From Gemmatirosa kalamazoonensis (GTDB lineage Bacteria > Gemmatimonadota > Gemmatimonadetes > Gemmatimonadales > Gemmatimonadaceae), in the NCBI RefSeq assembly GCF_000522985.1, contig NZ_CP007130.1, forward strand, positions 682,001 to 746,000: a DNA stretch of 64,000 nt, given 5' to 3'. The notes under the pieces were generated by a model. That model was not told where the DNA came from and ran no database searches. It was given only the letters and a program-made list of their open reading frames with translations. Made by a program: the position numbers and the translations under genes. Below are positions 35,196-44,298 of this stretch, piece after piece; within the stretch, counting starts at the first letter, position 1; each line of letters begins with the position of its first letter.

Positions 35196-35675
35196 ATGAT
35201 CATCCGTCCCTGTCGCGACGACGACATCGTGGAGATCCTGGCCATCGTGAACGCCGCCGCGGAGGCGTACCGCGGCGCGATCCCGCCCGACCGGTGGCAC
35301 GAGCCGTACATGTCCGACGCGGAGCTCCGCCGGGAGCTCGCCGCCGGCGTCGCGTTCTGGGGCTACGAGTCCGACGGGGAGCTGCTCGGCGTCATGGGCA
35401 TCCAGCGCGTGCAGGACGTCGATCTGATCCGCCACGCCTACGTGCGCCCCGACCGGCAGCGGCTCGGCGTGGGCGCGGCGCTCCTCGACCACCTGCGCGC
35501 CCTGAGCGACCGCCCGCTGCTCGTCGGCACGTGGGCCGCGGCGACGTGGGCGATCGACTTCTACCGTCGCCACGGCTTCACGCTCGTGCCGCCCGAGCGC
35601 GCCGCGGCGCTGCTCCGCCGCTACTGGTCGATCCCCGAGCGGCAGATCGAGACGTCGGTGGTCCTCGAACGTTGA
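35196..35675 (+). CDS. GNAT-family N-acetyltransferase
   Basis: 159 residues of the GNAT fold: IIRPCRDDDIVEILAIVNAA, then LLGVMGIQRVQDVDLIRHAYV and the acetyl-CoA loop RPDRQRLGVGAALL, ending with FYRRHGFTLVPPE. The substrate is unknown. The TGA stop (35673) is the left tip ttgaacc of the following repeat. Confidence 0.9.
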   Translation: MIIRPCRDDDIVEILAIVNAAAEAYRGAIPPDRWHEPYMSDAELRRELAAGVAFWGYESDGELLGVMGIQRVQDVDLIRHAYVRPDRQRLGVGAALLDHLRALSDRPLLVGTWAAATWAIDFYRRHGFTLVPPERAAALLRRYWSIPERQIETSVVLER

Positions 35676-35865
35676 ACCGCAGAGGACGCAGAGGGCCGCA
35701 GCGGAGTGTCCTCTTTGATCGAACCACAGGTTCGAGGTGCTGGGCGAGAACGACTGGGGATCCGACGGCGATGAAGAGGATCTCGAGATCTTTTCAATCG
35801 CACTTGGATCCCCAGAGTACTCCCCTGGCACCTCGCCCCATCGGTGTCCTCTGCGGTTCAATTCA
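35672..35865. repeat. Composite palindrome with conserved 110-base hairpin core, copy A
   Basis: Outer arms ttgaaccgcagagg and cctctgcggttcaa enclose a core (35729-35845). The core starts ggttcgaggtgctgggcgag, holds ggatcc, the palindrome gatctcgagatc and cttggatccccag, and ends gcacctcgcccc. Core arms of about 30 bases pair with few mismatches. Closely matched cores occur at 44147-44257 and 54932-55040. Lies between convergent genes. Confidence 0.9.
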
Positions 35866-39052: not shown

Positions 39053-39147
39053 GGACAGGATGAGCAGGACGGACAGGATGAAAACCAACAACAAGAGCAC
39101 TGCTGTCGTTGTTGGTTCTCATCCTGTCCGTCCTGCTCATCCTGTCG
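39053..39147. repeat. Palindromic tandem-repeat element (ggacagga type) within the efflux operon
   Basis: ggacaggatgagcaggac (39053) and its complement gtcctgctcatcctgtc (ending 39147) enclose aaccaacaac/gttgttggtt arms and a 15-base loop. It lies between the adaptor and pump genes and could set their expression ratio. Confidence 0.88.
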
Positions 39148-39178: not shown

Positions 39179-40399
39179 TCATCGCGTCTCCCCCGCGCTG
39201 GTCGACACCTCGAGCGCGGCGCTCGTGTCGCCGCGCACGTTCGGCGAGGCCGCCGACGGATCGGGGACGTGCACCGCGACGGTGCGGCTGATCGTCATCG
39301 TCGCGCCGGCGAACAGGCGCGACTGGCCGTCGATCACGACGCGGTCGCCGGGCGCGACCCCCTTCGACACGACCGCGACGTCGCCGACGGTGCGCTCGAC
39401 GACGACCGCCACCTGCTTCGCCTTGCCCGCCGCGTCGGGCGTGAAGACGTAGGATCCGTTAGGCCCCTGCTGCACCGCCACCGACGGCACGAGCACCGCG
39501 TTCGCGAGCTGGCCGAGCGTGAGGGACACCGGAACGAAGGAGCCGGGCCACAGCCGGCGGTCGGCGTTCGCGAAGCGCGCCTTCAGCATCACCGTGCCCG
39601 ACACCGAGTCCACCGCGTTGTCGACGAAGTCCACGACGCCGTGCTCGGTGACGCCGGCCGTCCCCGGCGCGCTGACGGACGTCGCCACGCCCACCGCGAC
39701 GTCGAGCCCACCGGTGCGCTGTGCGGCGCGCACCGCGGGAAGCTGCCGGTCGGGCACCGGGAAGCGCACGTGCACCGGCGTCACCGCGTTGATGACGACG
39801 AGCGGCGGGCCGCCGTTCGCGGCGACCTGGTTCCCGACGCGCACGTTCAGGTTCCCCGTCTGCCCTGCGATCGGCGCGCGCACGGTGGCGAAGCTCAGGT
39901 TGAGCTCCGCCTGCCTGACGGCCGCCTCGTCGGCCGCGACGGTCGCGGCGAGCGCCTCGGCGCTCGCGCGCTGCTGCTCGGCCTGCGACTGCGTGACGTA
40001 GCCCTTGCTCACGAGCGAGGCGTAGCGCTCGGCGTCGGAGCGCGCGGCGGCGGCGGTCGCGCGGTCGCGCGCGAGCACGGCGCGCGTCTGATCGAGCGCG
40101 ACCTGGTACGGCCGCGGGTCGATCTCGAACAGCACCTGCCCCTCGCGCACCGGATCGCCCTCGGCGAACCGCACCGCGACGACGGGGCCGCTCACGCGCG
40201 CCTGCAGCGCGACGGTCTGCAGCGGCTCCACCGTGCCGTTCGTCGCGAGCGTCACGGGCACCGTGCCGGTGGCGGCGACGGCGACGACGACGGGGATCTT
40301 CTGTGGGCCGTGCGCCTGCCTGTCGTCGCGGTGGCAGGCGGCGAGGGTGCCTAACGAGAGCGCGGCGAGCGCGTGGCGGGACACGATGTATGAGCGCAT
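39179..40399 (-). CDS. RND efflux membrane-fusion (periplasmic adaptor) lipoprotein
   Basis: 406 residues. Lipobox LAAC. HlyD/AcrA architecture: barrel and lipoyl halves (TVALQARVSGPVVAVRFAEGDPVREGQVLFEIDP), a helical hairpin (about 110-160), then the second lipoyl half (APIAGQTGNLNVRVGNQVA), the beta barrel and the membrane-proximal domain. It couples the RND pump to the outer-membrane channel. Starts 3 bases after the TolC-type gene. Confidence 0.94.
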   Translation of the reverse strand: MRSYIVSRHALAALSLGTLAACHRDDRQAHGPQKIPVVVAVAATGTVPVTLATNGTVEPLQTVALQARVSGPVVAVRFAEGDPVREGQVLFEIDPRPYQVALDQTRAVLARDRATAAAARSDAERYASLVSKGYVTQSQAEQQRASAEALAATVAADEAAVRQAELNLSFATVRAPIAGQTGNLNVRVGNQVAANGGPPLVVINAVTPVHVRFPVPDRQLPAVRAAQRTGGLDVAVGVATSVSAPGTAGVTEHGVVDFVDNAVDSVSGTVMLKARFANADRRLWPGSFVPVSLTLGQLANAVLVPSVAVQQGPNGSYVFTPDAAGKAKQVAVVVERTVGDVAVVSKGVAPGDRVVIDGQSRLFAGATMTISRTVAVHVPDPSAASPNVRGDTSAALEVSTSAGETR

Positions 40400-40402
40400 G
40401 CG

Positions 40403-42484
40403 TCAGCGAGACGAGGACGGAATGATCGTGGGCGCCGCGGCGCCCGGACGCGTGGTGGGCGGCACGGCCGGCGCGGCGACGGCGGGTAGCTCGCCCGCGG
40501 CGCCGAGGATCCCGGCGTCGCGCGACAGCTCGGCGAGCGCGGACGCCCACCCCCAGCGCGACTGCGCGGCCTGCGCGCGCGCCGTGGCGAGCGCGCCCTG
40601 CGCGGTGACGAGGTCGACGACGCTGCCGACGCCCTCGGTGTAGCGACCGCGCGCGACCTCCTCCGAGCTCACCGCGCTCGCGAGCAGTGCGGCGCTCGTC
40701 GCCACCTGGTCGCCGGCGAGGCGCAGCGCGTCGGCCGACGCGACGACCTGATTCACGACGCCGGTGCGCACGGCCTCGGCGCGCAGTTGCGCCGCCTCCT
40801 GCTCGGCGCGCGCGGCGTCGAGATCGGCGTGACGCGCACCGCCGTCGAACAGCGGGAGCGCGAGGCCGAGCTGCACGTTGTAGCTCTGCCCCGCGAGGTT
40901 CGCCTGGTTCGCGACCACGTGGCCGGCCGACGCGCCCACCTGCACGCTCGGCAGCAGCGCACTGCGCGCGACGCGCACCCGCTCGCCGGCGACGGCGGCG
41001 TTCGCGCCGGCGGCGCTGACGTCGGGGCGCTCGCGCAGCGCGTGCGCGACGAGCGAGTCCACGTTCGCGGTGAGCGCGGCCGTCGCGGCGCGCGTCGCGT
41101 CGGCGTCGGGCGCCGGCTCGATGGCGACGGCGAACGGCGTGTCGGCGCGGGCGCCCATCGCGGTGGCGAGCGTCGCGCGCGCGGCGGCGAGCCCGGTGCG
41201 CGCGCTCACCGCGGCGACGCGCGCCTGGGCGAGCGCGGTCGCCGTCTGCAGCGTGTCGGCGACCGTGGCGAGTCCCGCGTGGTAGCGTCCGACGGCGGCG
41301 TCCCGGCTCGCCGTCGCAGTGCGCACGTTCGCCTCCTGCGCGTCGGATAGCGCGCGCGCCGCCTGGTAGCCGAAGTACGCCTGCTCCGCCTGGAGGAGCG
41401 TCTGCTGCACGGTGGCGTCGCGCGTGAGCGAGAGCACGCTCGCCGTCTCGCGCGCCGCGCCGACCGTGCCGGCGCGGCCGCCGACGTCGAACAGCAGATA
41501 CGACAGGTTGACCGACGGCCCGAACGTGACGCGCTGCGCGCCGCCTAACGACGGGGCGCCGCCGCCCGCGCCGCCGCCGCTCGACGCGCTCTGTGCCGCG
41601 ACGAACGAGGGCGCGAACGTCAACGTGGGGAGCCAGCTCCCGCGTGCCGCGGCGTACTGCTCCGCGGCCACGCGCGCTTCGGCCGCCGCGGCTCGCGCCG
41701 TCGGATTCGCGCGCAGCGCGGCGTCGACGACGTCGGCGAGCGTGAGCGGCCGGGTGGACGCGGGCGTCGTCGGCTGCGCGTCGAGCAGCACGGCGTGCGC
41801 GACGAGGCTCAGCGCCGCGAGCGCGAGCGCGCGCCGCGGCACGGTGCGCTTCCGCGACGTGGGACGCGGTGCCGCACGCGGCGCCATGCCGTCGAACAGC
41901 AGCGACACGAGGATCTCGGCCAGCGCCTCCAGCGTCACGGTGCCGTCGGCGATGAGGTCCGCGTAGTCGCCGCGGAACACGCGCACGATGTGGCGGACGA
42001 GCAGCGCGGTGGGGACGTCGGTGCGGCAGTCGCCCTCCGCCTTGCACGTGTCGATCATGCGGCCGTAGCGCGCCCACACGCGCTCGCGGCGCTTGCGCAG
42101 CGCGGGCGCGTCGCGGAGCGCGCCGGGGAGCTGCGCGCGCGTGCCCCACAGCGCGTTGTGCACGCCGATCGCGTCGCGCAGATGGCGCTCGAGGCGCGCG
42201 CGGGCGCGCTCCCCGGCGGCGATGTCGGCCTCCGCGGCGGCGAGGCGCTCCTCGGCGCGCGACAGGTTGCGCACGAGGACGGCCTGCGCGATGGCGTCCT
42301 TCGACGGGAAGTGCTGGTAGAGCGTCGGCTTGGAGACGCCGACGTGCGCGGCGATGTCGTCGACGCTCGTGGCGGCGTAGCCGTGCTCCGCCATGAGCGC
42401 GGCGGCGGCGTCGAGGATCGCGGTCTCGCGGAGGCCGCGCTGTCGCTCGTGCCAGGACGCGCCGGGGGTGTGCGTTTCGGTCAT
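40403..42484 (-). CDS. In-frame fusion of TetR-type repressor and TolC-family outer membrane efflux protein
   Basis: 693 codons with no stop between two distinct proteins. Residues 1-200 are a TetR regulator: helix-turn-helix TSVDDIAAHVGVSKPTLYQHFPSKDA, then a helical ligand domain with ALLVRHIVRVFRGDY. Residues about 205-235 are a signal peptide (SRKRTVPRR, then ALALAALSLVAHAVLL, DAQ), and the remainder is a TolC/OEP channel (LTLADVVDAALRANPTARAA; VNLSYLLFDVGGRAG; LALPLFDGGARHADL). A cytosolic repressor and an exported barrel cannot work as one chain, so internal initiation at ATG 41887 (MAPRAAPRP) or cleavage is expected. The operator lies just upstream. Confidence 0.88.
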   Translation of the reverse strand: MTETHTPGASWHERQRGLRETAILDAAAALMAEHGYAATSVDDIAAHVGVSKPTLYQHFPSKDAIAQAVLVRNLSRAEERLAAAEADIAAGERARARLERHLRDAIGVHNALWGTRAQLPGALRDAPALRKRRERVWARYGRMIDTCKAEGDCRTDVPTALLVRHIVRVFRGDYADLIADGTVTLEALAEILVSLLFDGMAPRAAPRPTSRKRTVPRRALALAALSLVAHAVLLDAQPTTPASTRPLTLADVVDAALRANPTARAAAAEARVAAEQYAAARGSWLPTLTFAPSFVAAQSASSGGGAGGGAPSLGGAQRVTFGPSVNLSYLLFDVGGRAGTVGAARETASVLSLTRDATVQQTLLQAEQAYFGYQAARALSDAQEANVRTATASRDAAVGRYHAGLATVADTLQTATALAQARVAAVSARTGLAAARATLATAMGARADTPFAVAIEPAPDADATRAATAALTANVDSLVAHALRERPDVSAAGANAAVAGERVRVARSALLPSVQVGASAGHVVANQANLAGQSYNVQLGLALPLFDGGARHADLDAARAEQEAAQLRAEAVRTGVVNQVVASADALRLAGDQVATSAALLASAVSSEEVARGRYTEGVGSVVDLVTAQGALATARAQAAQSRWGWASALAELSRDAGILGAAGELPAVAAPAVPPTTRPGAAAPTIIPSSSR

Positions 42485-42501: not shown

Positions 42502-42537
42502 GTCAAGGAACTTTACTGGCTAGTAAAGTCGCTTGAC
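42502..42537. promoter_or_regulatory. Two-tier palindromic operator upstream of the TetR-TolC/RND operon
   Basis: GTCAAG-n3-CTTTACT-ggct-AGTAAAG-n3-CTTGAC is a perfect nested inverted repeat of 36 bases, 18 bases from the TetR start codon. The core CTTTACT-n4-AGTAAAG is the size of a TetR-family operator and is far more A/T-rich than the region. It probably mediates autoregulation of the efflux operon. Confidence 0.75.
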
Positions 42538-42670
42538 GAGAAGGTTCCCGCCAGCCCCTGGCCCGCACCCGGCAGCCCCGGCCACGGCCCCCTTGCGCGC
42601 ACGCTCGGCCGGCCGATGTTCGGGGACCGGACACGGCACGCATGGCAACCCCGATGAGGAGCATGGACCC

Positions 42671-44056
42671 ATGGAGCCACTGACGACCGCCACCGTCCCG
42701 ATGTCGTCGTACGACCCCACCGCCGTGCTGCCCGGCACGGTCATCCGCCCGGGCGACGCGAGCTACGACGATGCGCGCCGTCTCTGGAACGGGATGATCG
42801 ATCGACGCCCCGCGCTCATCGTCCGCTGCCGCGACGCCCAGGAGGTGCGCGCCGCCGTCGTCGCCGCGCGCGCCCGCGGGCTCCCCGTCGCGGTGCGCGG
42901 CGGGGGCCACAATGCGGCGGGGCTCGCCCTCTGCGACGACGGGCTCGTGATCGACCTCTCGCAGATGCGCGGCGTGACCGTCGACCCCGACGCGCGCACC
43001 GCCCGCGTCGAGGGCGGCGCGACGTGGGCCGACGTCGATGCGGCCACCCAGGCGCACGGCCTCGCCGTCACCGGCGGCGCGATCTCCACCACCGGCGTCG
43101 GTGGGCTCACCTTGGGCGGGGGCATCGGCTGGCTGATGCGCCGGCAGGGCCTGGCGTGCGACAACCTCGTCGCGGCGGAGCTCGTGACGGCCGACGGCCA
43201 CGCCGTGCGCGCGAGCGACCACGAGAACCCGGACCTGCTGTGGGGTCTACGCGGCGGCGGCGGCAACTTCGGCGTCGTCACCGCGTTCACGTTCCGGCTG
43301 CAGCCGCTCGACGGCGTCGTCTCCGGCCTGCTCGTGCACCCGCTCGCGCGCGCGAAGGAGGTGCTGCGCTTCTACCGCGAGTTCACGCGCTCCGCGCCCG
43401 ACACGCTCACCGTCTTCGCCGGCCTGCTGACGTCGCCCGAGGGCGCACCGATCTGCGCGCTGATCCCGAGCTGGTGCGGGCCCGCCGAGGAGGCGGAGGC
43501 CGCGCTGCGCCCGCTGCGCGAGTTCGGCCCGCCGCTCGCCGATCTCGTGCAGCCGATGCCGTACGTCGCGCAGCAGCGGCTGCTCGACGACGGGATGGCG
43601 CCGTCCGGCTTCCAGGTCTACTGGCGCGGCGAGTTCCTGCGCGCGCTCACGGACGAGACGATCGACGCGCTCGTCGACGCCTATGCCGCCGCGACGTCGC
43701 CGCTGTCGGTGCTCGTCATCGAGCAGATGGGCGGCGCGGTGGCCCGCGTGCCGCGCGACGCGACGGCGTTCCCGAACCGCGACGCCGCGTTCAACCTCGC
43801 GATGGTCGGCCGCTGGACCGATCCGGCCGAGCGCGACGTGCACGTCCGATGGGTGCGCGACGTCCACGACGCCGTGCGCCCGTCCGCGCTCGGCTCCTAC
43901 GTCAACTACCTCGGCGTGGAAGAAGGCGCCGACCGCGTGCGCGGCGCGTACGGTGACGCGACGTACGCACGGCTCGTCGCGCTGAAGAACGCGTGGGACC
44001 CGGAGAACGTGTTCCGGTTCAACCAGAACGTCGCGCCGAACTGGCGGCTGGCGTGA
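42671..44056 (+). CDS. FAD-linked oxidoreductase, berberine bridge enzyme-like
   Basis: 461 residues. PCMH/FAD-binding type-4 domain: LPVAVRGGGHNAAGLALCDDG (His for covalent FAD attachment), GVGGLTLGGGIGWLMRRQGLACDNL (the Cys that makes the second covalent bond in this family) and GGGGNFGVVTAF. C-terminal BBE segment ALGSYVNYLGVEEG... ALKNAWDPENVFRFNQNV. It oxidises alcohols, sugars or alkaloid-like compounds with oxygen. The start is supported by gaggag at 42655. An upstream in-frame ATG at 42533 lies beside the TetR operator and is unlikely. Confidence 0.92.
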   Translation: MEPLTTATVPMSSYDPTAVLPGTVIRPGDASYDDARRLWNGMIDRRPALIVRCRDAQEVRAAVVAARARGLPVAVRGGGHNAAGLALCDDGLVIDLSQMRGVTVDPDARTARVEGGATWADVDAATQAHGLAVTGGAISTTGVGGLTLGGGIGWLMRRQGLACDNLVAAELVTADGHAVRASDHENPDLLWGLRGGGGNFGVVTAFTFRLQPLDGVVSGLLVHPLARAKEVLRFYREFTRSAPDTLTVFAGLLTSPEGAPICALIPSWCGPAEEAEAALRPLREFGPPLADLVQPMPYVAQQRLLDDGMAPSGFQVYWRGEFLRALTDETIDALVDAYAAATSPLSVLVIEQMGGAVARVPRDATAFPNRDAAFNLAMVGRWTDPAERDVHVRWVRDVHDAVRPSALGSYVNYLGVEEGADRVRGAYGDATYARLVALKNAWDPENVFRFNQNVAPNWRLA

Positions 44057-44063
44057 CCGTGTG

Positions 44064-44298
44064 AATTGAACCGCAGAGGACGCAGAGGGCCGCAGAGGAC
44101 GGCTCTCTTCGAATTGAACCACGAGGACTCGACGTTCTGTTCGGCCGGTTCGAGGTGCTCGGCGAGTACCCTGGGGATCCAGCGGCGATGAAGAGAATCT
44201 CGAGATCTTTTTGATCGCCCTTGGATCCCCAGAGTACTCGCCTGCCACCTCGCCCCATCGGTGTGCTATGCGGCCCTCTGCGTCCTCTGTGGTTCAAT
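44064..44298. repeat. Composite palindrome with conserved 110-base hairpin core, copy B
   Basis: Starts gaattgaaccgcagagg, ends cctctgtggttcaat. The core (44147-44257) reads ggttcgaggtgctcggcgag, then ggatcc, aatctcgagatcttt, ttggatccccagagtactcg and ccacctcg. Its arms (44150-44179, 44222-44252) pair over about 30 bases with few mismatches. The 256-base gap between convergent genes holds nothing else. Confidence 0.9.

Follow-up and report, generated by a model that had tools for sequence, protein, structure and literature searches.

TetR/AcrR repressors control RND tripartite efflux operons such as mtrR–mtrCDE and ttgR–ttgABC. A single bacterial chain can also give rise to two proteins: signal peptidase cleaves FbcH, the cytochrome b/c1 precursor of Bradyrhizobium japonicum, at a signal sequence inside the chain. 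The locus described here encodes two complete proteins, a TetR/AcrR repressor and a TolC-type outer-membrane channel, in one uninterrupted frame with a signal sequence between them, and this holds in two genera. We found no description of a TetR–TolC fusion in the open-access literature. A second fusion in another genus, the unfused relatives and an intact operator show at the level of sequence that the fusion is real and old, and that it is probably functional.

The window, the whole stretch of 64,000 nucleotides that was analysed, comes from a soil bacterium of the phylum Gemmatimonadota and belongs to a genome of 7.5 Mb and 73% GC (G000) in four contigs, including replicons of 5,311,527, 1,106,233 and 1,040,503 bases. 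This fits a location of the window on the 1.04-Mb plasmid of Gemmatirosa kalamazoonensis KBS708, whose PacBio genome has replicons of 5,312, 1,106, 1,041 and 21 kb at ~100x coverage (PMC3974934). The fusion is a 693-codon open reading frame on the minus strand (42484..40403), with its ATG at 42484 and a TGA at 40405–40403; the plus-strand frame across the same interval is interrupted by stops. The sequence-only reading of this DNA had described a full repressor, a signal peptide and a channel in one stop-free frame, giving no strand, and Pfam matches and structure alignments bear this out on the minus strand. TetR_N (PF00440) is found at residues 23–69 (E 7.2e-21, 74 bits against a cut-off of 24). 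The TetR half is complete, with residues 14–202 aligned to residues 10–196 of the TetR structure 3f1b, and both this alignment and the conservation among orthologues up to the end of the half indicate that the C-terminal ligand/dimer domain is present. In the channel half OEP (PF02321) matches two stretches, the best at residues 249–444 (E 1.2e-50); the half has the two OEP repeats (~420 residues) by which TolC/OEP outer-membrane factors are recognized, and it aligns to the OprM, CusC and TolC structures over nearly its whole length. Between the halves lies RKRTVPRR-ALALAALSLVAHAVLLDA-Q, with cleavage placed before the Q, in which a basic stretch precedes a hydrophobic core. This segment reads as a signal peptide by composition and hydrophobicity, the call being made without a trained predictor, and it is internal unless translation begins at GTG 41842. 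An AlphaFold model calculated without an alignment has a mean pLDDT of 46 and is confident for the TetR DNA-binding domain only; residues 215–235 are helical in this low-confidence model.

Table 1. Features of the fused gene and of the operon that it heads (positions in the window)
Feature	Positions	Strand	Basis
Operator-like palindrome ACTTTACTGGCTAGTAAAGT	42510..42529	.	25 nt upstream of the fusion start codon
TetR/AcrR repressor part, aa 1–203	41876..42484	-	Pfam TetR_N; TetR structures; orthologue identity
In-frame ATG (Met200), judged an unlikely internal start	41885..41887	-	Anti-SD energy; Leu in orthologues
Junction, aa 204–214, holding the tetR stop and tolC start in unfused orthologues; stop-free here	41843..41875	-	Orthologue comparison
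Internal signal peptide-like segment, aa 215–236; predicted cleavage LDA-Q	41777..41842	-	Hydrophobic core and basic flank
TolC/OEP outer-membrane channel part, aa 237–693, and stop codon	40403..41776	-	Pfam OEP; OprM/TolC structures
Membrane-fusion adaptor (HlyD/CusB-like)	39179..40399	-	Pfam HlyD_D23; start 3 nt past the fusion stop
RND pump (ACR_tran), 1042 aa	35866..38994	-	Pfam ACR_tran, 1024.6 bits

The locus had also been read as part of an RND operon, and rightly: the channel half is genetically linked to adaptor and RND genes directly downstream. On the other side an FAD-linked oxidase-like gene, recognized by inspection of the sequence at 42533–44056 (+), diverges from the fusion, so that both genes have the operator-like palindrome at or close to their start; in the second genome that carries the fusion a different gene lies upstream. 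On either side of the RND operon and the FAD-oxidase-like gene lie copies of two dispersed intergenic repeats, at 35754–35856 and 44171–44273 for one family (103 nt, 90% identity) and at 35672–35718 and 44066–44112 for the other (47 nt, 87% identity). A near-perfect 46-nt inverted repeat with a 1-nt spacer (93%) occupies 39054–39146, between the adaptor and RND genes. Elsewhere in this genome there is a second tetR–tolC pair, unfused and only distantly related (L131, C2:2832000–2840000), as well as a TetR match on the minus strand (L139, C2:1160575–1160712) whose family resemblance is lost past ~110 residues and gives way to apparent nonsense, possibly a frameshifted tetR gene.

Three sets were searched for further fusions: 59 relatives, 395 genomes from the phylum and 179 from the family. 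Across these sets one other genome, from another genus of the same family (G030), encodes TetR and TolC in a single stop-free frame, here of 901 residues, followed by adaptor and RND genes of the same kinds in an identical order. The signal peptide of G030 is retained with a cleavage-like site, ARA-Q. The fusion of G030 (L058:3433–6138) also has a Pro/Ala-rich insert of about 150 residues past the signal peptide and a long Gly-Thr repeat in its channel half. A plasmid collection held no match to the fusion as DNA or protein, and a broad scan of genome contigs returned TetR-domain relatives only (30–56% identity). Among 388 sampled genomes of another phylum, that of L023 (Xanthobacteraceae), no match at E up to 1e-18 spanned both domains, the query being insensitive to distant fusions.

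That the missing stop codon is an error of sequencing or assembly was suggested by the sequence-only reading, which allowed for a recent mutation as well, and the genome is indeed of high GC. The reading took an orthologous locus with a stop codon as the sign of such an effect, and such loci exist, yet G030, an independent genome of another genus, shares the fusion. We therefore reject both a sequencing error and a fresh mutation; the genome also fits the PacBio assembly at its ~100x coverage, and an artefact has next to no probability left. Long open frames are common in a genome of 73% GC, and a stop-free junction of 15–30 codons is common by chance at this composition, so the absence of a stop by itself says little. 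The nine other long TetR frames that we checked in the two genomes have no recognizable second protein downstream as judged by eye, for which reason we also reject a chance open frame at high GC as a sufficient cause. The weight of the fusion comes from its being shared, from equal constraint on its halves, from the operator and from the missing start signals.

The two fusions are 55% identical overall, with 54% in the TetR halves and 56% in the TolC halves. At the second codon position identity is 0.73 in the TetR and 0.73 in the TolC half, and for each of the three codon positions the halves show similar divergence, which is lowest at the second and highest at the third. This implies that the TetR half is not decaying beside a channel that is still needed. 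It also bears on whether stop loss broke the system and left one half, or the operon, non-functional. A soluble repressor fused to an outer-membrane channel looks mechanically awkward, and the fusion occurs in only two genomes among those searched, but in both genera neither half is damaged and the two are under equal constraint, the operator is kept and the adaptor and RND genes are intact. We consider such a degenerate locus very unlikely.

The unfused relatives suggest how the fusion came about. In G253, G236 and G292, from other families of the class, the orthologous tetR is a separate gene whose product is 44–50% identical to the TetR half. The TAG that ends tetR in G253 directly abuts the ATG, in frame with it, that opens the tolC signal peptide; the adaptor gene comes next. 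G236 likewise has TAG-ATG, here at a contig end, with a TolC homologue at the end of another contig; it is likely that this, too, is a tetR–tolC junction. In G292 the tetR stop and tolC start overlap as ATGA. The loss of a stop codon, which had been put forward from the sequence alone, is thus borne out by orthologues that keep a stop exactly there. Three more distant tetR–tolC pairs of the phylum have both genes in the same frame with a start 0–12 nt past the stop (G055, G003 and G047), and three others overlap by 4–8 nt (G046, G036 and G031). Since unfused tetR–tolC junctions abut or overlap, losing one in-frame stop suffices to create a fusion. In a tree of TolC sequences the two fusions are sisters (99/100) and group with those unfused channels that are linked to a tetR (85/74); they are sisters in the TetR tree as well (84/91). 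One fusion event is the simplest reading of these sequence trees, and the stop-separated layout would be ancestral. With the relatives unfused and abutting and the fusions sisters, the fusion would have arisen by stop loss between translationally coupled genes. The closest unfused TolC homologues, from the family and order (L059–L077), have mostly lipobox-like signal peptides and no related TetR was found alongside them; unlike these, the clade of fused and tetR-linked channels has sites of the signal peptidase I type.

The core of the palindrome, TTTACT-N4-AGTAAA, has a single perfect copy in each of the two genomes, G000 and G030, and in both it sits immediately upstream of the fused gene; even if up to two mismatches are permitted, chance would give 0.02 copies in the window. 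The corresponding place in the unfused relatives holds TTTACTCGCGAGTTT (G253 and G236) or TTTACCGGTGAGTTT (G292). As judged from presence and conservation, the locus thus has an operator-like palindrome near its own gene, as is typical of TetR/AcrR regulators. A unique, conserved palindrome upstream of both fusions strongly suggests, from comparison of the sequences, that the TetR half still works and represses its own operon locally. A scan for sigma-70 promoters near the palindrome gave nothing.

How the channel half is translated depends on the start signals around the junction. In the unfused relatives the ATG of tolC has anti-SD energies of –4.9, –5.9 and –11.6 kcal/mol. Both the stop and this ATG are absent from the fusions, and neither fusion has an ATG with an SD sequence near the junction. 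The sequence-only reading had proposed initiation at ATG 41887. This codon is in frame, as claimed, but it is a weak candidate: its anti-SD energy is +0.4 kcal/mol, it falls within DG[M/L]xPR, a motif conserved in the tail of TetR, and its position is Leu in the four closest orthologues (G030, G253, G236 and G292). We reject it as a conserved tolC start on account of the lack of anti-SD pairing and the Leu in orthologues. The best internal candidate in G000 is GTG 41842, also in frame, with GGAAG upstream and a partial SD of –3.5 kcal/mol; a product begun there would open with MPRRALALAALSLVAHAVLLDA-Q, which looks like an ordinary signal peptide. The equivalent position in G030 lacks a start codon. 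Near the junction of that fusion there are GTG codons only, at –2.5 and –3.2 kcal/mol; the nearest usable one, at –2.5 kcal/mol, precedes the hydrophobic core by 23 codons, and nothing but an ATC is closer. RNA structure at the junction is not more stable than that of shuffled sequences (z 0.70).

These signals allow a dual-coding reading, in which ribosomes begin TolC inside the frame, close to the signal peptide and most plausibly at GTG 41842, and the read-through chain serves as a repressor whose tail is idle or degraded. In G030 a normal signal peptide could likewise begin at one of the GTG or ATC codons, and translation of the separate genes in unfused relatives looks coupled. The lack of an SD does not settle the matter, because SD use in the window is weak (–6 kcal/mol or below in 29% of gene starts versus 10% of internal codons) and unfused TolC proteins of the family often seem to be initiated at GTG with no SD. 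Against this, the candidate start of G000 has no counterpart in G030, ATG 41887 is neither conserved nor preceded by an SD, and the full read-through chain would still be produced whenever the repressor is. Internal initiation is a serious contender, though we lean against it.

We favour a single precursor that is split at its internal signal peptide. This ranks ahead of internal initiation as the most likely reading, and we hold it with middling confidence. The earlier objection that function as one chain is implausible is too strong, as a chain that is cut at its internal signal peptide need not hold both parts in one place. The ancestral state would be an autoregulated tetR–tolC–adaptor–RND operon whose first two genes abutted, the stop being lost before the lineages of G000 and G030 split. 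The fused gene would be translated as one chain. Its N-terminal TetR half would fold and dimerize in the cytoplasm and repress the operon from TTTACT-N4-AGTAAA, presumably by binding it as an operator. The basic-hydrophobic segment would act as a signal peptide, with the N-in orientation favoured by its basic flank, and thread the C-terminal half through Sec. Signal peptidase I is predicted to cut after Ala236 (LDA-Q; ARA-Q in G030) to give the mature TolC channel. The repressor would be left with a C-terminal membrane helix, and so pass through a membrane-tethered stage, until this helix is trimmed. As both come from one chain, repressor and channel would be made 1:1. Because the cut repressor would bear this helix unless trimmed, one may speculate further that repression senses export: each repressor would start out joined to one channel, the signal helix would hold it at the inner membrane, and its release or activity would report successful TolC export and processing, feeding the state of the channel back on transcription of the pump operon. 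We think such a secretion-coupled autorepressor rather unlikely.

Translation as one chain would make the product a bacterial polyprotein that sends a repressor to DNA and a channel to the cell surface from each translation event, with synthesis fixed at 1:1. The locus is also a tractable case for asking whether a signal sequence that stands behind a 200-residue cytoplasmic DNA-binding domain can be dealt with by Sec and signal peptidase. With separate and fused states in one phylum, it traces a plausible evolutionary path from abutting, coupled genes through stop loss to a stable fusion. As in mtrR–mtrCDE and ttgR–ttgABC, a TetR gene stands beside genes for an adaptor, an RND pump and a TolC-type channel, with an operator upstream; in contrast to those systems, repressor and channel share one frame here, and the repressor comes first in the operon that it is thought to control. 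The unfused tetR–tolC operons of G253, G236 and G292 have orthologous TetR and TolC proteins, a related operator-like site and the same order of tetR before tolC, and differ from the fusion in the stop codon between the genes. The likeness to FbcH lies in one gene, one chain and an internal signal sequence, with cleavage predicted in the present case; whereas both products of FbcH are subunits of a single membrane complex, the fusion joins a DNA-binding repressor to an outer-membrane channel.
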